Virus record (IMG/VR): IMGVR_UViG_3300036766_002276
Location: 1 to 42,504 of that record
DNA: 42,504 nt
Reading direction: 5' to 3' (one strand)
DNA from: a virus
Shown: piece after piece, positions 1-13,638 of the stretch
How positions within the stretch are numbered: the first letter of the stretch is position 1
Layout: every line of letters begins with the position of its first letter
Position numbers and translations under genes: made by a program
Notes under the pieces: generated by a model
What the model saw: only the letters and a program-made list of their open reading frames with translations
The model's database searches: none
Told to the model about the DNA's origin: nothing

Positions 1-1653
1 TCATTGCCTATCTGAACGCGACCTATTACAAGTTTCCGCAGCAATAAGTGCATTAGCGACAATCGCACCCCGGCGCAGCCGGGGCGCTCGTCCCGGCTGT
101 GCGCTTGAATTGGGGTGCCAATTTCGAGCATTGTGAACCTCTCCGCCGGATCCGATCAGCTTCGCCTGGTTGTAGTGGATCGTCACACGGTCGCCGGCGA
201 TCACCGCCTTGTCGATGAACGAGCCCAGGAATTCCCTTACCTTCTTCGGGTCCCCCGTCTCCTCCAGCAATTGCCGAAGGTAGTCGCCGATCTCCCTGAT
301 CTCGCGATCGCCGATCTTCGCCTGCGGAACCGGCTGGTTTTCCAGATCGGTCAGCTCGGTCTCGATCGCGCGCATGCGTTCGTTCAGCTCGGCAAGGCGC
401 GGCCCGATGTCGCCCAGGTTGGGGGCGTCCTTGCCGTGTAGTTCGAGCACTTCATACAGCCGGCGCCGGCGAGCCTCCTTGTTGCGCAGCTCGGCGACCA
501 GGTCGGCCCGCTTGCCCTCCCGGTCTTTCACGAACTTGCCCTTCAGCTCGTAAATCTGCTGGATGATCTCGGCGACACGCTCCGGGCTCAGTATCCTGTC
601 GAGCACAAAACCGAGCAGCCACTGATCGAGGTCGTTGGCCGGCAGCCGGCGGTTGGCGCAGCCGGTTCCCCTTTGCGCGCCGCGGCAGTTGTAGTAGCTA
701 TACACCCTGTTCCTGCCGGTAGCCGACTCGATCTGCATTCCGGTGCCGCAAGCACCGCATCGCAGGAGGCCGGTGAACAGGAAGCGGCTCTTCGGGCTGC
801 CGCGCTGCACGGCCGGCGCCCGCTCGGCAAATAATTTTTGTACCTCCATGAACGCCTCCTCTTGGATGATCGGCTCGTGGCTTTTCGTGCGGATCCACTC
901 CGACTCCGGCCGGATCCGCTTGTTGGCGTGATCGTTCCGGTTGAATGTGAGGTAGCCGGCATAAACCCAGTTCTTCAACAGGTAGATGATGCGGCCCTTC
1001 GTCCACAGCTTGCCGCGGCACAGGCGGCCTGAAGAGTTCAACGCGATCGCGATGCTCTTGGTGCCGGCGCCGTTGGAAAACTGGAAGAAGATCTCGCGCA
1101 CGATCTCCGCCTCCTCCGGGCGAACCTGCAGGCGCCGGCGCTGGCCGTTGGGCACGGAGCGATATCCGTGTGGAACCCCGCTGCCGTTGAAATGGCCGTC
1201 CCTGGCATTCTTCAACATCGATCGCAGTGTGTCCTTGCTGATCGTCCTGCTCGTGTTTTCGTCCATGAGCTCGAACAATCCCTCGAGCAACCATCCTTCG
1301 TCGGTGCTGGTGTCGATGTTCTGTGAGACGTACACCATTTCAGTCCCGCGGCGGCGCAGATTGAATTTTGTCCAGGCCGCCAGCGCGCGGTGCCTCGCAA
1401 ACCGCGCTGTGTTCCACAGGATGAAGTAATCGATGTCGCGCAGCTCACAATAATCGACGGCCTCGTCGAACACGTCCCGGTTTAGCTTCCGCCCTGAGAC
1501 CCCATCCTCGATGAACACCTTGATGACGTCGGCGCCCAGCTCCCCGGCCTTCGCGCGGCTGACTTCGATCTGACTTTCGATCGGCAGCTCCTCCTCGGCC
1601 TGGCCGGCGGTGCTCACTCGAGCGAGGATGATCGCTTTTTTCATTGCAGCCAT
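1..1653 (-). CDS. Large serine recombinase (phage integrase/resolvase family)
   Basis: This is a 550-residue large serine recombinase that would catalyse site-specific DNA integration, excision or inversion through a Ser-DNA intermediate. The N-terminal resolvase domain begins with ILARVSTAGQ, and S14 is the expected nucleophile. A recombinase domain follows at about 160-290, then a zinc ribbon with CGAC near 299-302 and two more cysteines to about 332, then a charged coiled-coil region, as is usual in this family. The start at 1653 lies 1 nt after the stop of the upstream gene, whose last codons contain the GGGAAG ribosome binding site. An earlier in-frame ATG at 1704 lies inside that gene and is less likely. 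The stop codon is the first three bases of the window. The last ~45 residues are low-complexity and may be variable. Confidence 0.93.
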   Translation of the reverse strand: MAAMKKAIILARVSTAGQAEEELPIESQIEVSRAKAGELGADVIKVFIEDGVSGRKLNRDVFDEAVDYCELRDIDYFILWNTARFARHRALAAWTKFNLRRRGTEMVYVSQNIDTSTDEGWLLEGLFELMDENTSRTISKDTLRSMLKNARDGHFNGSGVPHGYRSVPNGQRRRLQVRPEEAEIVREIFFQFSNGAGTKSIAIALNSSGRLCRGKLWTKGRIIYLLKNWVYAGYLTFNRNDHANKRIRPESEWIRTKSHEPIIQEEAFMEVQKLFAERAPAVQRGSPKSRFLFTGLLRCGACGTGMQIESATGRNRVYSYYNCRGAQRGTGCANRRLPANDLDQWLLGFVLDRILSPERVAEIIQQIYELKGKFVKDREGKRADLVAELRNKEARRRRLYEVLELHGKDAPNLGDIGPRLAELNERMRAIETELTDLENQPVPQAKIGDREIREIGDYLRQLLEETGDPKKVREFLGSFIDKAVIAGDRVTIHYNQAKLIGSGGEVHNARNWHPNSSAQPGRAPRLRRGAIVANALIAAETCNRSRSDRQ

Positions 1654-1654
1654 T

Positions 1655-2152
1655 TTACTTCCCGCTCTTGATTCTCGATATGTGACGTATGTTGATCCTC
1701 TCACCCAGGTGCCGGTGGACCGCGTCCTGGATCTCCTTGGCTGTCATTCCCGCGCTGCATAGCGCCTCGATGTAGCGGTTGCGCTGGAATCTCAGGTAGG
1801 AACGGAACGATCGCATGCGGATATCCAGGCCCCCGTCGTCGCTGCGAAACGCCGGCTCGGCATCCAGGATGCGCCATGTGGCCAGGAAAGCGTCAACGCC
1901 CACCGCGGCGGCGATCCGCAGCCAGACGCTCTGCAGGCCCATCGTGCGGAGCTCGTCGAGCCGCGGATCGCGAGTTTCACCTTCGCCAGGCAAAAGTTTG
2001 AGACATGTGCAGGCGTCCAGGTACCCACCCCCCCTGGGAGGAGAGGCGAGGGACGGCCGCCGACCCCCCACCCCCTGCGGATCTGCGGGCTCGACCAGGC
2101 CCAGGTCGGCCAGCTCGCGATCCGAACTGCGCTTTACACTCTGTCCAGCCAT
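1655..2152 (-). CDS. Hypothetical protein with C-terminal helix-turn-helix-like region
   Basis: This 165-residue protein is not recognised as a named family. Its N-terminal third is low-complexity (Pro/Gly/Arg, over C-rich runs at 2028-2080). Residues ~80-165 look globular and helical. The C-terminus contains a helix-turn-helix-like stretch (MTAKEIQDAVHRHLGE followed by a basic end, SRIKSGK), so DNA binding is plausible. The start at 2152 is set by a TGATG overlap with the upstream small gene, with GAGGGG upstream; an in-frame ATG at 2200 lies inside that gene. The gene ends 1 nt before the serine recombinase, which suggests a coupled trio and perhaps a regulator or directionality factor for the recombinase. 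That role is inference from position only. Confidence 0.6.
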   Translation of the reverse strand: MAGQSVKRSSDRELADLGLVEPADPQGVGGRRPSLASPPRGGGYLDACTCLKLLPGEGETRDPRLDELRTMGLQSVWLRIAAAVGVDAFLATWRILDAEPAFRSDDGGLDIRMRSFRSYLRFQRNRYIEALCSAGMTAKEIQDAVHRHLGERINIRHISRIKSGK

Positions 2153-2340
2153 CAGCTCAGCCCCTCGGCCATGCCCGCGAACTGCGCTTTCCTCAAGCAT
2201 ACGCAGTTCCCATCAACCGTATAGATGTGCCGCCTACATTGAGTTAGCCCGATATCGATCCAAGTTGCAGCCATAGCCGCGCCCGGCCGCCCTTGCCCAC
2301 TGCCATCACTATGTAAACCATGTTTTAACCCCTCTCTCAT
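2152..2340 (-). CDS. Small cysteine-containing protein
   Basis: This 62-residue frame is kept because its stop overlaps the next start (TGATG at 2150-2154), the same coupling used throughout this region. A weak AAGGTGG sequence precedes the ATG at 2340. An internal Met at residue 23 (MAATWIDIG) could be the true start of a 40-residue product. It has three cysteines in a short C-terminal segment (TQCRRHIYTVDGNCVCL), which might bind metal. No family is recognised. It would be the first gene of a three-gene unit ending in the serine recombinase. Confidence 0.45.
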   Translation of the reverse strand: MREGLKHGLHSDGSGQGRPGAAMAATWIDIGLTQCRRHIYTVDGNCVCLRKAQFAGMAEGLS

Positions 2341-2430: not shown

Positions 2431-3465
2431 CTATGGTTGCTGCAGGCGCTTCAGAATGTCCGAGACTGGCGTCTTGATCTTCGCCAATGGGTTGGCTCTA
2501 TCTGCTTCCCTGGCCAGCTTCCTGATGGCCAGGTCGGTGTAGATCTTGGTCGACGTCGGATCGCTATGGCCCATCAGCATCTGCCGCACGAGGAGATCAA
2601 CATCGGACTCGGCGAGCTCGGCGCCGAAGAGATGGCGCATAGCATGCGGGTGCAGGTGCTCCTTGGGGATATCAAGGTCCTTGCCATAATGGGCGAAGAT
2701 TCGCGCCAACGCCCTGCGATTCAGTCGCCGGCGAGCACCTCGGTATTCATGCGCCGGGCAGCTCGGACACTTTGTCGAGACGAACAACACGCGATCGCCG
2801 TCGTCGAGCTGGCGATCGATCGCCTTCAGCTCCGCGTGGTCGATGTACACGCGCAGCATCAGATCCGCATCCTGCGGCACAGGCACCTTGCGGACGCGAT
2901 CGCCTTTCTCCCGAACACGGATCACCAGGCGCGGCCGCCCGTCGATCGACTCGTGCAGTACGTCGCTCTCGTTCAGCCCCACCAGGCCGCTTACGCGCAG
3001 GCCGCAGCCGAGCAGCAGCGCGAACATCGCGCTGTCGCGCACGCCGATGAACGTGTTGTAGTCCGGCGCGAACATCAACTTCTCCGCGCTCGCCAGACTC
3101 ATGGCCTCGGGCAGCGCGCGCGGTATGCGCGGGTATTCGATATTGGCGGCCACGTTCGTCTTCACGTGGCGGTTTGCCACCAGCCATTTATAAAATTCGC
3201 GCACGCCCATCACGTAAGTCCGGCGCGCCGCGGGCCCGAGGCCCTTCCGATGCAGCCAGATCCCGGTGAACAGCACCAGGTCATCGCGCGTCCCCTCGAG
3301 CGGATCGCGGCCGGCATAGAACTCCTCCATGCGACCGAGCGCGAGCCGGTACGCCTCGATCGTCCGCAACGACCTGTTTTTGTTGTGGCGCTTAAACTCC
3401 AGGAACGCGGTTACCCGCGCGCTGAAATCGCCGACCGATCCTTCAGACACTTGCACCCGGAGCAC
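2431..3465 (-). CDS. Tyrosine site-specific recombinase/integrase (XerC/D-like)
   Basis: This is a 344-residue phage-type tyrosine recombinase. The N-terminal half (about 11-105) is the SAM-like core-binding domain. The C-terminal catalytic domain shows the full active site: R157 in GLRVSG, a Lys in the REKG turn near 187, H274-x-x-R277 in HPHAMRH, H300 in MGH, and the nucleophile Y309 in KIYTDL. The length is typical of integrases. The assigned start is a GTG at 3465. The nearest Shine-Dalgarno-like sequence (GAGGGG) is rather far away, so the exact start is uncertain by a few codons. The gene lies directly downstream of the iteron region, where attP arm sites would normally be found. It is one of three recombinase genes here. 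Confidence 0.93.
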   Translation of the reverse strand: MLRVQVSEGSVGDFSARVTAFLEFKRHNKNRSLRTIEAYRLALGRMEEFYAGRDPLEGTRDDLVLFTGIWLHRKGLGPAARRTYVMGVREFYKWLVANRHVKTNVAANIEYPRIPRALPEAMSLASAEKLMFAPDYNTFIGVRDSAMFALLLGCGLRVSGLVGLNESDVLHESIDGRPRLVIRVREKGDRVRKVPVPQDADLMLRVYIDHAELKAIDRQLDDGDRVLFVSTKCPSCPAHEYRGARRRLNRRALARIFAHYGKDLDIPKEHLHPHAMRHLFGAELAESDVDLLVRQMLMGHSDPTSTKIYTDLAIRKLAREADRANPLAKIKTPVSDILKRLQQP

Positions 3466-3720
3466 CCAAATCAGCTATCCCCTCGTTAACAAAGAAAAAA
3501 ATATGGGTGCAAGTTGAATTCTGCCATGCACCCGCCGGACCCACCAAAAGATGCCGAAACCCGCGTCCAGACTGAATTTCAGGCCGGGTGGGAGTGAGTT
3601 ATCCACAGGCGGCACTTGCACCCAACATGCACCCGAAGCACCCAACATGCACCCTCACATGCACCCAAATAATTATCTTAAAAAATAGATAGATAGATCG
3701 TTTTGGGTGCTCCGGGTGCA
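3452..3720. repeat. Iteron array with DnaA box and AT-rich tract (candidate replication origin or att arm sites)
   Basis: Eleven copies of the motif TGCACCC, or its core GCACCC, occur in both orientations between the integrase start and the end of the primase-helicase gene: 3452, 3462, 3505(-), 3527, 3617, 3628, 3638, 3648, 3660, 3705(-) and 3714(-). The five central copies are 10-12 bp apart, about one helical turn. They include a 17-bp direct repeat at 3618-3634 and 3638-3654 (20-bp period). A 19-bp perfect inverted repeat (TGCACCCGGAGCACCCAAA, 3452-3470 with 3702-3720) encloses the array. A perfect DnaA box lies at 3599-3607, and an AT-rich stretch with ATAG repeats spans 3667-3697. This combination is typical of iteron origins. 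Integrase arm-type sites are the main alternative. Confidence 0.75.
3599..3607 (+). promoter_or_regulatory. Consensus DnaA box
   Basis: The sequence TTATCCACA matches the strict DnaA-box consensus exactly. It sits 10 bp from the helically phased iteron block and about 60 bp from the AT-rich tract. That supports reading the surrounding gene-free stretch as an origin opened with help from host DnaA. Confidence 0.6.
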
Positions 3721-3829: not shown

Positions 3830-6800
3830 TTAACTGAATTGCGCCTTCGGCGCGATTTGCGGCGCTGCCGCGGAGGTGGCGGGCAACGGGGGCGAGCCGC
3901 AGGCTTGCGCATCCCCCTCCGGTGCCTCGTAGTCGGTCCAGGACCACAGCGTGATGCGGTTGCCATGGATCACCTTGTCGGCGGTCGGAGACCACCCCTC
4001 TGCCCTGATCGTGGCGATCTCGTTGGCGATCCGCACGCCGAGCTGCTTGGCGTTCACGAATGGCACCCTGACGCCGTACTCGCGGCCGTAGCGCATCATC
4101 ATCGAGAGCAGATCGGCCGTGGTGCAGCGGAAGGTGTAATAGTGGTGCCCGATGCCTCTGCCGTCCTGCACGATCTCCTCGCGGGCCACCTTCAGGCCCA
4201 GGAGCTCGCACCACAGGGGCTCATTGCCCACAGTGTCGGCCTTGCGGCTGTATTCGATCAGGAACACGCGCTTGAGGCCGTTCAGGAGCTGCAGCACCGC
4301 GTTGGTGCCCTGCTCGATCATGCGGCTGTGCTCGTTCTGGTACTTGATCCATGCATCGAGCAGCACATATTCCGGCGCGCGGTTGCCCGCATCGGCCGAG
4401 AGATCGTCCGACAGCGGCATGTAGCGCAGCAGCGCCTTCGCGATCAGCACCAGCAGCGACAGGTACTCCGTCACCCGCTCCTTGCTGAAATCGGCGTGTT
4501 GCTCCTTCGCGTAGCGGATCAGCGCGCCGCGTTCGGACAGGCTCGGCATTACTTTCTCCGCCAGGATCTGCAGCCAGGCCGACAGCAGATCGTCGCGCTT
4601 CGCCCCCATGCGCTGAACCGTTTCCGTCTCGACGAAGTCCTTGCGCTGCCAGCGCTTGGAGAAATCGACACAGAAGGTGCGGTTGATCAGTTCCGGCCGC
4701 GCGAACGGCTCGATCGCGGTGATGGCCACCAGGCAGTTGATCGTTTCTTTCACGACCTCGGAGGCGGTGCCCTGGCCGCGCTTGATGTTCGAGGCGCCCG
4801 TGGCCGCGAGCAGGAGGAAGTTGAGCGCGTTGCGGTTCAGATCGTCCGTCTCCAGGTTATCCTTGATGATCAGCGGCTCGGTGGAGGCCATCGAATAATC
4901 CGACGCAGTGGTCGAGCGGCCGACCATGTTCTCGCCGTAAATCAGGAGAGACATCAGCTTCGCGGCCGTCGTCTTTCCGGATCCCGACATGCCCTCCATT
5001 TTCATCAGCGCGCGGCTCTCCGAGAACGGCAGCAGGAACGCCGACAGCGCCCAGGCGAGCAGCAGGTAGCGCTGCGCCGGCTCGCAGCTCATATTGTCGA
5101 GCAGCAGCGTCTTCATCTCGCGCATCGCGGCCGCCACGTTGACCTCGGGGTCGTAATCGAACTTCTTCATCTGCCCGGATTCGGACAAGAGCACGTTGTG
5201 CGCATTGGTGCCGTTCTCGGCCAGGTCCACCTCGCCGCCGGCGATGGCAAGGATCCTGTTGGCAGGGTCTTTGAGGTTCAGGTACAGCACCGGCTTGTCG
5301 TCGTCGTTCAGGAGCGAGATCCAGCCGAACTCGGACAGCCGGTCGCCGCGCGTATAACAGAGCGATCGCAATTCCTCCCACACGAACTTGGCCAGCGCCG
5401 TGGTGTAGTTGATGCCGGTGAGTTTGTGCATCAGCGCCTTGAACGGCGTGTTGTCGCCGATCTGGTAGATGGTCTGCTCATAGAAGATGTGGAGCTTGTC
5501 GCCCGAGACAAAAAACCGGCCGTGCGATTTGAAGTACTCCCACACCTGCATCGACGCCACGCGCATGAAGCCTTCGCTCTTGGTCGATCCGTTGAAACTC
5601 GCCACCAATTGCTCCAGCGTCTCGCGCAGGTCGAAGCCGTGCTTGATGCTGTTCAGCACGCTGTCGCGCGAGAAGCCGAACTTCTGCAGCTCGTTGATCA
5701 CCGCGTCGCGCTCGAGCTCGGGCAGCAGCGCCAGGTACTCGAAGAAATCGATCTCCTCGAGGTAGCGCAGCGTCGCGTCGGCCGCCTCGCGCACGTTGGC
5801 CGGCAGCACCTTCAGCTCCCACAGCAGCGGGTTGTGCGCTTTCTTCAGCGCGGCCGCGATCCGCCGCGGCGCGCCATCGATGTCTTTCTGGATCCAGTCG
5901 TCCGGATCCTCGCCCGGCTCCATCAGCGCGCTGGCCACCACGCACTTGCAGCCGCGGTTGCGCAGCAGGTGCTGATAGAGCTTGCGCGTGTACTTGATGC
6001 CCGCCGGCGGCTGGCCCTGGTCGCCCCACTTCGTGTCGTAGTCGAACCACAGCACGAAGCGCTTGCCCGCGGCGTGCGTGTCGATCCAGCGGATCTGCTC
6101 GGCCGACACGCTGCCCAGGGACGCGAGCACGTTGCGGCTGCCGGCGTCGATGAAGCTCGCCAGGTCGTTCTCGCCTTCGCACAAGATCACGGTCTCCGCC
6201 TTGATCGCCTTCTGGTTGCCCCAGGCGAAACCGTCGAGCCGGTTTTGCGCGCGGAACTGGTAGTCGATCTCCTTCTTCGGATCCTTCAGCGTGAAATGCG
6301 CCACCTCGCCCGAGGGCAGCCGGTGCGGGAAAATCGCCAGACCGGGCAGGAAGAAATCGCGCCAATCCCCGGGCTTGCCCTTTTTTTCGACGTAGAGCCC
6401 GGCCGCCTTGATCTGCTCGAGCGTGAAGCCCTGCGCCTGCAGCGCCTGCGCCAGGCGCCCGTCGGAGGCCCCCACCTCCATCGCTTCCAGCGTCGCCGGC
6501 TTGTGCCCGCGGCCCTTTTCCGCCTTCGGCGCCGTCAGCCAGGTCAAAAGTTCCGGCCGGCTGGCCAGCACCAGGCGGTAATGCGAAATCGAGGCCTCCA
6601 GGATGCGCTGTAGCACGCTATCGGCGGGGGGCCGGGCCTCTCCCCCTCCCCATTCCGTCTTGCGCTCAGGCAGCGTAACGCCGGCGAACTGCGCCACGTC
6701 GCGCAGCGCGTCGCCCTTGGCCAGGGCCTTGTGCGCCTCGGCGAAGGTGAACACGTCGCCGGCGCGATCGCAGGAGTGGCACTTGTAAGCCGACATCCCC

Positions 6801-7117: not shown

Positions 7118-7147
7118 AAAATTGGGATTTATATCTTTAACTTGCAT
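7118..7147. repeat. Left arm of inverted repeat flanking the methyltransferase
   Basis: Read on the minus strand this arm begins ATGCAAGTTAAAGATATAA and continues to about 30 bp. The same 19 bp occur in opposite orientation at 7910-7928, followed by one mismatch and a shared TCCC. The arm contains the last codons and stop of the methyltransferase gene. Confidence 0.8.
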
Positions 7148-7901
7148 GGCTCTTTAATACCTTGAATGCAGTTGCTGCCACTCGCGGAACCTGTCCATTC
7201 CCAAGGGCTTGAAGTCGCTCCATCCGATAGGCCAGCCCATTAACCACTCGACAAACTCCGGGTTCATCTGGCCAGTCGGTAGGTGCCGACCATCTTTCAT
7301 TTCCGCCCTGCATACAGCAAAACTCAGTGAGTCTTGAGTTACCTTCCCATCCCACTTCAGGGCCGTCCCCATCGTGCAACTTGCATCCCGCGGGGACTTC
7401 GTTGGCGTAGGCCAGAATCCAGATTCTTTCCCGTTTATGAATTCCTCCGACGTGATGCGCTCCCAGCACTCCCCATTCCGCATCGAACCCCAGCGCGGCC
7501 AAGTCTCCGAGAACTCGGTGTAGCCCCCGAAAAGTGAGTGCTGGGCTGTTTTCCACGAACGCGAATCGCGGCTGTATTTCGCGAATGATCCGCGCCATCT
7601 CTCGCCACAATCCGCTACGCTCGCCTTCGATTCCCCTCCGGTTTGATCCTCCGGCTGTGCTAATGTCTTGACAGGGGAAGCCGCCCGAAATGACATCGAT
7701 TTTCCCTCGCCATTCCTGTCCGTTGAATGTTCGAACATCGTCCCAGATCGGGAACTTTTCGAGCAATCCATCGCGTTGCCTTGCGAGCAAAACACTTCGG
7801 CAGTAGATATCAATTTCAACAGCGCAGATGGTGCGCCATCCAAGGAGTTGCCCTCCCAAGATGCCGCCTCCTGCCCCTGCAAAAAGTGCCAACTCATTCA
7901 T
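7137..7901 (-). CDS. DNA cytosine-C5 methyltransferase
   Basis: This 254-residue enzyme transfers a methyl group from S-adenosylmethionine to cytosine in DNA. The conserved C5 motifs are clear: motif I LALFAGAGGG (4-13), motif IV GGFPCQD with catalytic C77, motif VI ENS (117-119), motif VIII KRERIW near 156-161 and a motif IX/X-like LGNGQVPR near 233-240. The target-recognition region between about 167 and 220 is very short, so the protein is smaller than most bacterial homologues, as in other phage enzymes. No cognate endonuclease is nearby, so it is an orphan, probably protecting phage DNA or altering host methylation. Its codons are more AT-rich than those of its neighbours, and inverted repeats bracket it, both signs of recent acquisition. 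Confidence 0.93.
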   Translation of the reverse strand: MNELALFAGAGGGILGGQLLGWRTICAVEIDIYCRSVLLARQRDGLLEKFPIWDDVRTFNGQEWRGKIDVISGGFPCQDISTAGGSNRRGIEGERSGLWREMARIIREIQPRFAFVENSPALTFRGLHRVLGDLAALGFDAEWGVLGAHHVGGIHKRERIWILAYANEVPAGCKLHDGDGPEVGWEGNSRLTEFCCMQGGNERWSAPTDWPDEPGVCRVVNGLAYRMERLQALGNGQVPRVAATAFKVLKSHAS

Positions 7902-8377: not shown

Positions 8378-10378
8378 TCACGCTGCCAAACGCGCGTGAG
8401 GAGTTGGAGCGGGCCGCGGGACTCGAACCCGCGCCGGCGCTGGTCGCGCCGTGTCCCCGTCTGGATGCGCCCGCGTTGAAATGCCTGCCTCGCCGGCACG
8501 CTCGTGCTGCATCCAGCCAGGCGGTGTCGCGCGAAGGAATCGCACAGTCTTCCAATACCGCCGCGCCCGGGCGCGGACCGCGCTGCGGTGGTAGCGCATG
8601 CCGGCCTTCGACGGACAGCGATCGAGCTCGCGCTCGTTCGCCCACTTGATAATGGTCGCGGTCGATACGCCCGCTTCGCTCGCCGCCTGGGACAGGCGCA
8701 GCCAGTGAACGCCGAAGCGCTCGCGCTTTACCGGATGCCGCTTTGCGTGCTTCAGGCGCTGGAACATCGACTCGGTGATGTAGAGGCGGCGGCGGTCCCA
8801 CTTCGCGCGCGACAGCCTGATGGTGCCGTCGAGCTTGCGCTCGTGGATCCATGCCAGCGACACGCCGAGTTTCGCGGCCGCCTGCTTGAGCGTGTAGCCC
8901 TCGCTCGATTTAAGGCGGTTCTTGACTGCGTTCACGGTGTCGAGCGGGATGCCCCTGGCGCCGCGCCAGTTCACTCCTTTGAGTAAAATCCGGAATCGCG
9001 CGATCGAGACGCCGACACGCCCCGCGGCCTGCTCCTCGGTGAATCCGATCTGCTCGCGCAGCCGCGCGCATTGCTGCCGCAGCACATAGGTGACACCCCG
9101 CGCAGCGCCGGCCGTGCCGAGCTTCGATCGCAGTCTCCCTTTCGCGATGAACGCGCGCAGCTCGTAGAGCTTGAACCCGTACCATTCATGCGCCGTGGCG
9201 AGCGAAATCCACGACCTGTAGCTGCCGCCCATCGGGCATTTGCGCGCCTTCCAGCGCGTCGCCTCGGTGCGCGACACGTAGTAGCGCCCGCCGACCTTGT
9301 TCGCCTCGAGCATGCCGTTGGTGATCGCGTTCATCACCGCGCTCAGGCTGCGGGTGCAATGCCGCGCCACCTCGGCCGGCCGCATACCGAACCGCCATTC
9401 GCGCGTCAGGTGCCGCTTCGCGCCGTAGGCGATCGGCGGATAGCGCAGCAGGTAGTCGTCGAAGGTGCGCGGTGCGCCCTTCGGACCCCATATATGCGCG
9501 CAGGTCGCGCAGCTCGCCGGATGCCGCCTCGCCTGCAGCAGCTTCCAGGTCACCGTAAGATTGCTGGGTTCGGGTTTGCCCCACCATGGCAGCGGGCGCC
9601 CCGCGCGCCGGTCCGCCACCAGCTTGCGCGCGACCTTCGGATCGACGAACCAGGTGCCGAACTTCGTCGAGTGGATCCCCAGGCCGAACGGGTTGCAGCG
9701 CACCGCGGTCGGCACGTAGCCCATGCGCGCCCACTCCGAGAGCTTGTCGCTGTTGATGCCGAGCGGGCGTTTGAGCGTGCTCAACTGCACATAACCCTTC
9801 GGCGGGAACACGCGCGACGCCTTCCACGCCTCCCATGCCTGCCTCGGAATCACCCACAGGCGGCCGACGCGAAACGGCCGCAACTGCTTCGCCTTGATGA
9901 CCTGGTAGATCACGGCGCGCGTGCCGATCTCGCGGCCGGCCTCGGCGATGGTGATTCCGCCCACGACGTCGATCGTCATCATCCCCAGCCGGTGGTTGAT
10001 CGCCATCTGCACGGAAAGGGCCGAGCGGCTGGCGCCGCGATCGCCGGACAGTTCCCGCAGGCGCTTGGTCAGGACTTTCGAAATCTGCGCCTTGTCTATG
10101 CGCCCGACCAGGCTCGCCAGGAGCGCGAGCTCCGGCGCCTGCCAGTTGTAGCTGCCTCGGTTCGACTTCCGCGGCGCCGGCCATTCGCTATCCAGCGGCG
10201 GCCGGCCGTGCCACAGGGTAAAAAGCTCAACGAAGCACTTGACTGTCTTCAGCCTGGTGCAAACGCCTCTCGCGCGCAGCCGCGCGATATCCTTGGCGGG
10301 TTGCCCGAGGACGGCCGCCAGATCGTACAGATAGGCGCGGAAGCCGTGCTGGAGAACGAAGCGCTGCCAGTCGGTCAT
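8378..10378 (-). CDS. Poly-helix-turn-helix DNA-binding protein
   Basis: This 666-residue protein is built from about seven consecutive modules that each resemble a MerR/excisionase-type winged HTH: ~141-190 (ITIAEAGREIG), 196-255 (LSTLKRPLGIN), 330-380 (MRPAEVARHC), 388-440 (ISLATAHEWYG), 444-490 (FTEEQAAGRVGVS), 493-545 (YTLKQAAAKLGVS) and 556-605 (LRLSQAASEAGVS). Several end with the typical wing and a Y/W-V-x-R/P segment. No catalytic domain is visible. It probably binds an extended or repeated DNA site, as a regulator, origin factor or nucleoid-like protein. The start at 10378 is fixed by an ATGA overlap. The Pro/Arg-rich tail after ~632 overlaps the tRNA-like sequence and is probably not conserved. 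Confidence 0.75.
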   Translation of the reverse strand: MTDWQRFVLQHGFRAYLYDLAAVLGQPAKDIARLRARGVCTRLKTVKCFVELFTLWHGRPPLDSEWPAPRKSNRGSYNWQAPELALLASLVGRIDKAQISKVLTKRLRELSGDRGASRSALSVQMAINHRLGMMTIDVVGGITIAEAGREIGTRAVIYQVIKAKQLRPFRVGRLWVIPRQAWEAWKASRVFPPKGYVQLSTLKRPLGINSDKLSEWARMGYVPTAVRCNPFGLGIHSTKFGTWFVDPKVARKLVADRRAGRPLPWWGKPEPSNLTVTWKLLQARRHPASCATCAHIWGPKGAPRTFDDYLLRYPPIAYGAKRHLTREWRFGMRPAEVARHCTRSLSAVMNAITNGMLEANKVGGRYYVSRTEATRWKARKCPMGGSYRSWISLATAHEWYGFKLYELRAFIAKGRLRSKLGTAGAARGVTYVLRQQCARLREQIGFTEEQAAGRVGVSIARFRILLKGVNWRGARGIPLDTVNAVKNRLKSSEGYTLKQAAAKLGVSLAWIHERKLDGTIRLSRAKWDRRRLYITESMFQRLKHAKRHPVKRERFGVHWLRLSQAASEAGVSTATIIKWANERELDRCPSKAGMRYHRSAVRARARRYWKTVRFLRATPPGWMQHERAGEAGISTRAHPDGDTARPAPARVRVPRPAPTPHARLAA
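8405..8474 (-). tRNA. Degenerate or shortened tRNA-Gly (anticodon ACC)
   Basis: Seventy bases on the minus strand fold as a tRNA. The 5' acceptor GCGGGCG pairs with GGCCCGC over six of seven positions. The D-arm is short (TCC/GGA). A 5-bp anticodon stem (CGGCG/CGCCG, 8435-8451) carries the 7-nt loop CGACCAG, with ACC at positions 34-36. A perfect T-arm has loop TTCGAGT (8416-8432), followed by discriminator T and an encoded CCA. The acceptor ends, the NCC anticodon and the CCA all match bacterial tRNA-Gly. Irregular points are G at position 33 instead of U, a two-base variable loop, a G-G pair at 7:66 and the overall shortness. It overlaps codons 635-658 of the poly-HTH gene. It may be a decaying or non-canonical tRNA. 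Confidence 0.5.
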
Positions 10379-10773
10379 GGCAGAATGATCCGTTGTTCCC
10401 ACGGCGCCGGATCCGGCACGCCGTGAAGCACGATAAAACCATGGATGACACCTTCGGCGTTGAGCGACGGATCCATCGCCCACGCGCCCTTGGTGATCTG
10501 ATCAAGGCCGTAGGTCTTTAGTTCCCCGTTTTCGACCTCCAGCGCGCCCAACCTGACCGGCATCGGGAACGACGGCATATTCGGACCGAGCCAGAGCACA
10601 AGCTCGCCGTCGATCATCCCGCAAACTATCTCGTCCGCCCAGGCCTTGTGCTCGATCACCGCGGCGAGATCCTCCCGCCAGCGAAAGAAAAACTGACAAA
10701 CCGGAATACTCGGATCGTCGAAGTGCTCAGCGGCGCTGATTTGCCATTCCTCCACGTCGCGCCAGAACTTCAC
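10375..10773 (-). CDS. Hypothetical protein, 132 aa
   Basis: No family is recognised. The protein is acidic and aromatic-rich (KFWRDVEEWQ at the start), with mixed alpha/beta character and no membrane segment. The GTG start at 10773 overlaps the stop of the ATPase gene (GTGA), and its own stop overlaps the poly-HTH start (ATGA). It is therefore translated between the two and may act with them. Confidence 0.65.
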   Translation of the reverse strand: MKFWRDVEEWQISAAEHFDDPSIPVCQFFFRWREDLAAVIEHKAWADEIVCGMIDGELVLWLGPNMPSFPMPVRLGALEVENGELKTYGLDQITKGAWAMDPSLNAEGVIHGFIVLHGVPDPAPWEQRIILP

Positions 10774-12740: not shown

Positions 12741-12937
12741 GCCGCCACCTCATGACCCGCGCAGGCCTCGGCGGCTGCCGGGGCGGCCGCCTGTCCCGCA
12801 ACAGGATCGCCGCCCGCGTCCGCCTCGTACCAGCAGCCGTCGTGATTTTTCGCATAAGCCGCCGCGAGCCGCTGGCTGTCGGTGATGGCGCCGGTGATGC
12901 TCCCGTCCGGCCAGGCTACGCCGTAGCGCGCGCTCAT
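12737..12937 (-). CDS. Small hypothetical protein, 66 aa
   Basis: It begins MSARYGVAWPDGSITGAITD, has a compact first half and ends in an Ala-rich tail. No family is recognised. ATGA overlaps on both sides, with the short tyrosine recombinase upstream and the membrane protein downstream, support it as a gene. Confidence 0.6.
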   Translation of the reverse strand: MSARYGVAWPDGSITGAITDSQRLAAAYAKNHDGCWYEADAGGDPVAGQAAAPAAAEACAGHEVAA

Positions 12938-13638
12938 GCCGCCGCCTTCTGCGCATACGCCGCCGCCACTTTGTCGGATGGCAGCCTGGACGCCCCGTCG
13001 ACGGCCTCCAGCCCCTCCAGCAGCTCCTCCTTGCTCACCGCGGTGTAGATCCCCGTCGACGCGATCGAGCCGTGCCCCAGGGCCGCCTGGACCAGCCGCA
13101 GGGGGTTCGCCGAGGTGGACCGGCGCATGATGTTCATCGCCCGGGTGTGGCGCAACCAGTGGGGGCTCGCGTGGCCGATGCCGGCCGCCTGGCACCAATG
13201 CGCCATGCGGAACTCGTAGGTGCGCACGGACATGCGGCCGTGCTTGCGGCTGAACACGAGCGGCGCCTCCGGCGTGCCCGGCCCGCCCATTTCGGCGTGG
13301 ATCGCGCACAGCGCCTCCAGCGCCTCGCGCACCGGCCGGGTGACCGGCACCTGGTGGTCCTGCCGCGTCGCCGCCCGGGCCGGCCTATCGCCCGTGGCGG
13401 GCTTGCCGCCCGTCGCCTTGCGGTTCTCCCTGGGGATATACAGCCAGCCGGTCTTCAGGGCGAACTCGGCGTCCGCCAGGTTCATCCGGGCGAACTCCCC
13501 GATCCTCAAGCCCGTCGAGCGCAACAGGGAGATCCAGGCATAGTCGCGCCGCGCAAGGACCGCAGCATGCGACCTCAACGTCGCCATCACCTTCGCCTGC
13601 TGCGCGTCCGTAAGATATCGTGTGATAAACCGGCTCAT
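12934..13638 (-). CDS. Short tyrosine recombinase (catalytic domain only)
   Basis: This 234-residue recombinase consists almost entirely of the catalytic domain. R45 lies in TGLRIGE, H160-x-x-R163 in SPHWLRHT, H189 in LGHGS and the nucleophile Y198 in GIYTAV. The usual N-terminal core-binding domain is missing: only about 35 residues precede the first catalytic Arg. The start at 13638 has a strong GGAGGAG site. Solo catalytic-domain recombinases act in some phages and plasmids on inversion or dimer resolution, but the target here is unknown. It heads the tightly coupled block running down to the poly-HTH gene. Confidence 0.87.
   Translation of the reverse strand: MSRFITRYLTDAQQAKVMATLRSHAAVLARRDYAWISLLRSTGLRIGEFARMNLADAEFALKTGWLYIPRENRKATGGKPATGDRPARAATRQDHQVPVTRPVREALEALCAIHAEMGGPGTPEAPLVFSRKHGRMSVRTYEFRMAHWCQAAGIGHASPHWLRHTRAMNIMRRSTSANPLRLVQAALGHGSIASTGIYTAVSKEELLEGLEAVDGASRLPSDKVAAAYAQKAAA

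Follow-up and report, generated by a model that had tools for sequence, protein, structure and literature searches.

A repeat array of fixed geometry and changing motif beside a phage primase-helicase gene, proposed as its replication origin

Between the genes for a primase-helicase and a tyrosine recombinase, a 42.5-kb virus record (referred to as the window, the whole stretch of DNA analyzed here) carries a 270-bp region crowded with copies of one short motif. Which protein reads these copies, and for what purpose? An earlier note, made from the sequence alone, took the region for an iteron origin with a DnaA box, at which integrase arm sites might compete. The relatives examined here support the assignment of the array to the primase-helicase, while the DnaA box and the competition with an integrase fell away. 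Judged from these sequence comparisons, the region is quite probably the replication origin of the phage, read by its own primase-helicase in the manner of SaPI, P4, and Cch2.

The count of eleven motif copies in 270 bp is exact: GGGTGC or GCACCC occurs eleven times between positions 3453 and 3719. Outside the array, 25 copies of GGGTGC in 42.2 kb give an expectation of 0.16 per 270 bp (Poisson P ~4e-17), and in 20 simulated windows no more than 7 copies of any hexamer fell within 270 bp. Elsewhere in the window, the motif forms no second array. The 17-bp direct repeat with a period of 20 bp (GCACCCAACATGCACCC at 3618 and 3638) is legible in the sequence, the 19-bp inverted repeat bounding the array is 100% complementary, and the AT-rich tract could likewise be located (Table 1). 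Helical phasing, claimed for the repeats in general, holds for the five-copy cluster (start-to-start distances of 12, 11, 9, and 11 bp). As described earlier, the array adjoins the primase-helicase gene, 110 bp from its stop codon; the tyrosine recombinase gene begins at the opposite edge. GC skew, suggested as a check, shows no switch at the array and is uninformative.

Table 1 Features of the array and of the neighboring genes in the window
Feature	Position	Strand	Basis
Primase-helicase gene, 1055 aa: CHC2 zinc finger, Toprim, MCM/Cch-like AAA+ helicase, predicted C-terminal winged helix	3830..6997	-	PF01807, Toprim (Pfam); PHROG 47; AF2 model
Codons 956-1033, predicted winged-helix domain, proposed array reader	3899..4132	-	AF2 pLDDT 88.8; motif covariation with residues 861-1033
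Primase-proximal motif pair (TTTGGGTGCTCCGGGTGCA), in opposite orientation to the cluster; forms one arm of the 19-bp repeat	3702..3720	+	Sequence, layout in relatives
AT-rich gap, 38 bp, 84% A+T, proposed as DNA unwinding element; most relatives have a similar length (~38 bp)	3667..3704	.	Composition
Five tandem motif copies, conserved core, helically phased; hexamer starts 3618, 3629, 3638, 3649, 3661	3618..3666	-	
TTATCCACA, DnaA-box-like; not kept by relatives	3599..3607	+	
CCGGGTGGGAGTG, degenerate copy at the place of the relatives' single inverted copy after the five-copy cluster	3584..3596	+	
29-bp inverted motif pair (11-7-11), extra element of the serine-recombinase clade	3505..3533	.	
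Second gap, 37 bp, between inverted copy and distal pair	3468..3504	.	
Distal motif pair; other arm of the 19-bp repeat; touches recombinase gene start	3452..3470	-	
Xer-like tyrosine recombinase, 344 aa, start codon uncertain; array-linked, considered not to be the reader	2431..3465	-	PF00589, PF02899 from residue 19
Large serine recombinase	1..1704	-	PF00239, PF07508, PF13408

Several other genes of the window deserve mention. The large serine recombinase is likely the integrase; in a related prophage, the att repeat adjoins the 3′ end of the serine recombinase gene. The window (12934-13638) and many relatives, including Microcystis phage yong1, also encode a second, small tyrosine recombinase of 200 to 240 aa that consists of nearly the catalytic domain only. 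Two overlapping same-strand frames (7137-7901 and 7154-7897, both on the minus strand) each match DNA methyltransferase families, which may reflect overprinting, a frameshift, or a family artifact. The 701-aa protein encoded at 8378-10483 has several helix-turn-helix (HTH) matches (HTH_17, HTH_3, and HTH_23) and is unusually long for a phage regulator.

Widened searches yielded 47 distinct loci, a few of them near-identical to one another, in records from Gallionellales, Desulfobacterota, and Nitrospirae. The earlier note had raised the prospect that close relatives with the same replication gene might lack the motif; the array is kept in all of them, and its layout also in distant ones. It lies downstream of the primase gene with the same copy order in 46 of the 47 loci; no array was found at locus L063, where 2.4 kb of sequence is left after the gene. 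Among viral contigs, relatives of the primase are followed by an array with nearly identical spacing, upstream of a related recombinase. A hexamer cluster of at least eight copies is present in 41 of 44 3-kb segments past the primase stop codon versus 2 of 142 control segments from the same loci, and the four-copy core pattern had 7 exact matches among 2.9 million viral contigs, all in records with this primase.

What is conserved beside the primase gene is the geometry. The usual order is two inverted copies (8 to 9 bp apart), an AT-rich stretch of ~38 bp, five copies in steps of 9 to 13 bp, ~25 bp, one inverted copy, ~37 bp, and two final copies; some loci lack single copies or have them in degenerate form. 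The AT-rich gap measures ~38 bp in most loci and is 74 to 95% A+T across 19 array regions. The window's clade has an additional segment with the 29-bp inverted pair, and the distant clade often has one or two additional copies ~100 bp ahead of the array, near the primase stop codon. The letters of the motif, in contrast, vary among loci (GGGTGCAAGT, TGGTGCAGT, GGTGAAAGT, GGTAGCAGT, and GGTTGCAAGT, with further variants GGGGAAAGT, GGGGCAGA, GGGGCACAT, GGGAACTT, and TAGGGGAAG). Free letters within a fixed spacing would be expected of repeats bound by a protein whose recognition drifts.

The layout extends beyond phages. The closest plasmid match, a circular 36.7-kb plasmid of Desulfocapsa sulfexigens, carries the primase, a tyrosine recombinase, and an identically laid out array with the motif GGTGCA; its annotated features include no phage structural genes. 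This plasmid also encodes a Rep3 initiator, which may represent its main replicon, and ParA; the array therefore need not be the sole origin there.

The primase-helicase joins a primase and an AAA+ helicase to a C-terminal domain predicted to bind DNA. Across 18 members, Pfam detected CHC2 in all 18, Toprim_3 in 4, and a helicase family in none (0/18); neither Prim_Zn_Ribbon nor a D5-type helicase, by which Pfam would place a protein in the P4 alpha family, matched any of them at E≤0.01. An AlphaFold2 (AF2) model of residues 590 to 1055 (pLDDT 80.8) resembles MCM-like AAA+ helicases, its best solved match being SCCmec Cch (5dgk, Z 16.9). The C-terminal 139 residues (pLDDT 88.8) are modeled in a winged-helix-like arrangement, and the best matches listed for this domain are the iteron-bound initiators Pi and RepE, both weak (Z ~5), a likeness that we take as a hint and not as proof. 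Queried by itself in Foldseek, the C-terminal domain had no confident match (E>0.09); the P4 origin-binding domain is absent from the matches listed, which leaves room for a likeness to it. Searching solved structures by sequence with a primase profile returned nothing usable.

We then asked which protein the motif follows. Within the flanks examined, no proteins other than the primase and the tyrosine recombinase are common throughout both clades (a small recombinase occurs in 8 of 16). In the distant clade, motif distance correlates with primase distance (Mantel r 0.57, p 0.02) and not with recombinase distance (r 0.11, p 0.29). Over 37 loci, partial Mantel tests link the motif to the C-terminal part of the primase: when the recombinase and the other parts of the enzyme are controlled for, residues 861 to 1033 still account for motif distance (r 0.20, p 0.003). 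Neither the remaining primase (p 0.37) nor the recombinase (p 1.0) contributes anything. Motif tracking by identity alone was not significant over all 18 first loci, and the later tests, with clades separated and the sample enlarged, were chosen after that result was seen.

Individual loci point the same way. The primases of L077 and L078 are 88 to 95% identical to that of L082 up to residue ~860 and 65 to 69% identical beyond it; in the DNA of L078 and L082, identity drops near the same residue, is low across the whole array, and returns to a higher level within the recombinase gene, and the motifs of the two differ (GGTTGCAAGTT versus GTGGTGCAGT). This case of domain exchange is one pair only, and intergenic DNA diverges fast in any case. 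Conversely, L091 has a recombinase only ~29% identical yet keeps the TGGTGCAGT motif of L081 to L086; L087 and L117 have AAA+ domains 68% identical, winged helices 99% identical, and an unchanged motif; and L028 and L044 have a common motif with primases 78% and recombinases ~50% identical. Together, these modest correlations suggest that motif change goes with the C-terminal domain of the primase and not with the rest of the enzyme or the tyrosine recombinase.

Alternatively, the adjacent tyrosine recombinase could recombine DNA at the array, which would then be either an attP with arm sites or a single-motif resolution site of the TnpI/IRS kind. Where the sequence extends far enough, a tyrosine recombinase gene nearly always comes next after the array, and the 29-bp inverted pair (11-7-11) of the window's clade looks like a core site. 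Yet the recombinase has no arm-binding domain, its core-binding SAM-like domain starting at residue 19; motif similarity does not follow recombinase similarity, and recombinases only 27 to 30% identical adjoin the same kind of motif. In five loci of the distant clade, a separate dif-like 29-bp inverted repeat (11-7-11), AACCGCACAT-n7-ATTGTGCGGTT, lies between the array and the recombinase gene (L027 10463, L042 11561, L043 6858, L044 12182, and L028 14281) and is probably the core site of that clade's tyrosine recombinase; inverted repeats beside the recombinase genes of clade II are singly not significant, and it is the common sequence in five loci that supports them. Prophage ends could be mapped in one case, the relative G003, which is integrated in a Gallionellales contig between copies of a 16-bp repeat at 62129 and 105954, one end falling at the 3′ end of the serine recombinase gene; since the array is intact 3.3 kb inside this prophage, it is not the att site there. 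We therefore rejected a tyrosine recombinase site of either type on the prophage ends, the distance tests, and the separate inverted repeats, and regard it as very unlikely. Integrase arm sites competing with an origin, as the earlier note envisaged, find no support either: besides the absent arm-binding domain, the untracked motif, and the intact prophage array, recombinases have been exchanged without motif change.

Phage yong1 bears on this question from both sides. It keeps a related recombinase, with eight TTCCAC copies in ~350 bp upstream of the gene (L016 5970-6330), and has a different primase (PHROG 5629) 11.7 kb from this array. A recombinase kept with an array of another motif, without the related primase, favors a recombination site and counts against an origin read by the primase; if the motif goes with the replication protein, a different motif is as expected, and the TTCCAC array is probably yong1's own array of another kind. 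A search of viral contigs by the recombinase alone found no relatives.

Two further observations concern repeats near the recombinase genes. In the window's clade and in yong1, a conserved 11-7-11 inverted repeat (AACTGCG...CGCAGTT) separates the tyrosine recombinase gene from its neighbor (window 2180-2208; also L009, L011, L014, and L037); AAAGCGCAGTTC recurs in the start of the gene after it in several relatives, and the repeat at 2180-2208 could equally be an operator of that next gene. The prophage-end repeat in the Gallionellales metagenome-assembled genome (MAG) is CCAGGTCGGGGAGCCA (L047 10130, contig 62129; L049 13955, contig 105954); its site resembles the 3′ end of a tRNA gene, and ARAGORN called no tRNA there.

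If the primase-helicase does read the array, it might do so mainly for copy number or incompatibility control, as at P4 crr, or at an autoregulatory operator, with the origin elsewhere. The additional copies just past the primase stop codon in the distant clade, the two similar half-units within each array, and the silence of GC skew would all suit such a role; the conserved AT-rich gap between inverted copies suits strand opening instead, and the window has no second array of the motif. We consider a mainly controlling role unlikely. We give hardly any credence to a plasmid-type iteron origin read by some other DNA-binding protein, such as the 701-aa multi-HTH protein or host DnaA. The former does have HTH domains, and the DnaA box pointed out earlier is perfect and unique in the window, but within the flanks examined no such protein is common to both clades as the primase and the tyrosine recombinase are, and the box is exact in only 2 of 19 homologous array regions, on which count we rejected a DnaA-dependent iteron origin. 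No Rep3 initiator was found among the window proteins scanned, the array's neighbors being the primase and the tyrosine recombinase.

For an origin read by the primase-helicase, we propose the following mechanism. The C-terminal winged helix would bind each copy of GGGTGCA(A/T)GT. The inverted copies flanking the 38-bp AT-rich gap, two on one side and five helically phased ones on the other, would set enzyme subunits face to face, probably as two AAA+ rings that melt the gap, and the fused DnaG-type primase would then prime synthesis. Strand opening fits here because the conserved AT-rich gap has inverted copies on both sides. The second gap, inverted copy, and terminal pair may form a second, weaker unit or a control element.

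Elements of this arrangement are found in known systems. Phage P4 alpha unites a zinc-finger/Toprim primase, a helicase, and a C-terminal origin-binding domain in one chain and works with iterons, but it belongs to a different sequence family, and its ori and crr are two separate sites, whereas here one compact array adjoins the gene. In SaPIs, the origin comes immediately after rep and is built of short repeats (iterons) to which the replication protein binds (PMC7581432). The likeness is in the position just past the gene and the series of short repeats; SaPI primases are of the AEP family rather than CHC2-Toprim, and here a drifting motif occupies a fixed ten-site geometry in full-size phages, not satellites, with a recombinase gene next. 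In SCCmec, the isolated C-terminal domain of Cch2 binds direct repeats downstream of its own gene, with a recombinase gene beyond the intergenic region (PMC7581432); Cch2 and Cch, the latter the closest structural match of the modeled AAA+ part, are separate helicases without the DnaG-type primase that is fused here. The primase-helicase ORF904 of pRN1 contains a winged helix, and the plasmid's origin immediately follows the ORF904 gene (PMC4234260), but that origin needs a 100-nt stem-loop and not an iteron array, and the pRN1 primase is archaeo-eukaryotic. Rep3-type origins (RepE and Pi) likewise place helically phased iterons by an AT-rich element, along with the weak C-terminal fold resemblance; here, however, the initiator would itself be the helicase-primase, and no DnaA box is conserved. 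The present system is a distinct variant, with a CHC2-Toprim primase, no Pfam helicase match, and a fixed geometry with free motif; its novelty is uncertain, the literature compared being openly licensed.

These loci may represent a family of origins that specify themselves: the geometry would stay constant while the recognized letters diversify, and phages and plasmids would exchange the C-terminal DNA-binding domain and its array as one cassette, which would give related replicons mutually independent origins; we hold this wider reading tentatively, as a real possibility. Spacing, not sequence, would be the recognizable origin signature for this phage group and at least one plasmid, and the ~10 natural pairs of domain and motif offer a source for reading the DNA recognition code. 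The origin of a little-studied phage group becomes directly testable, and the comparison suggests that replicons may escape cross-recognition by joint change of a domain and its sites.
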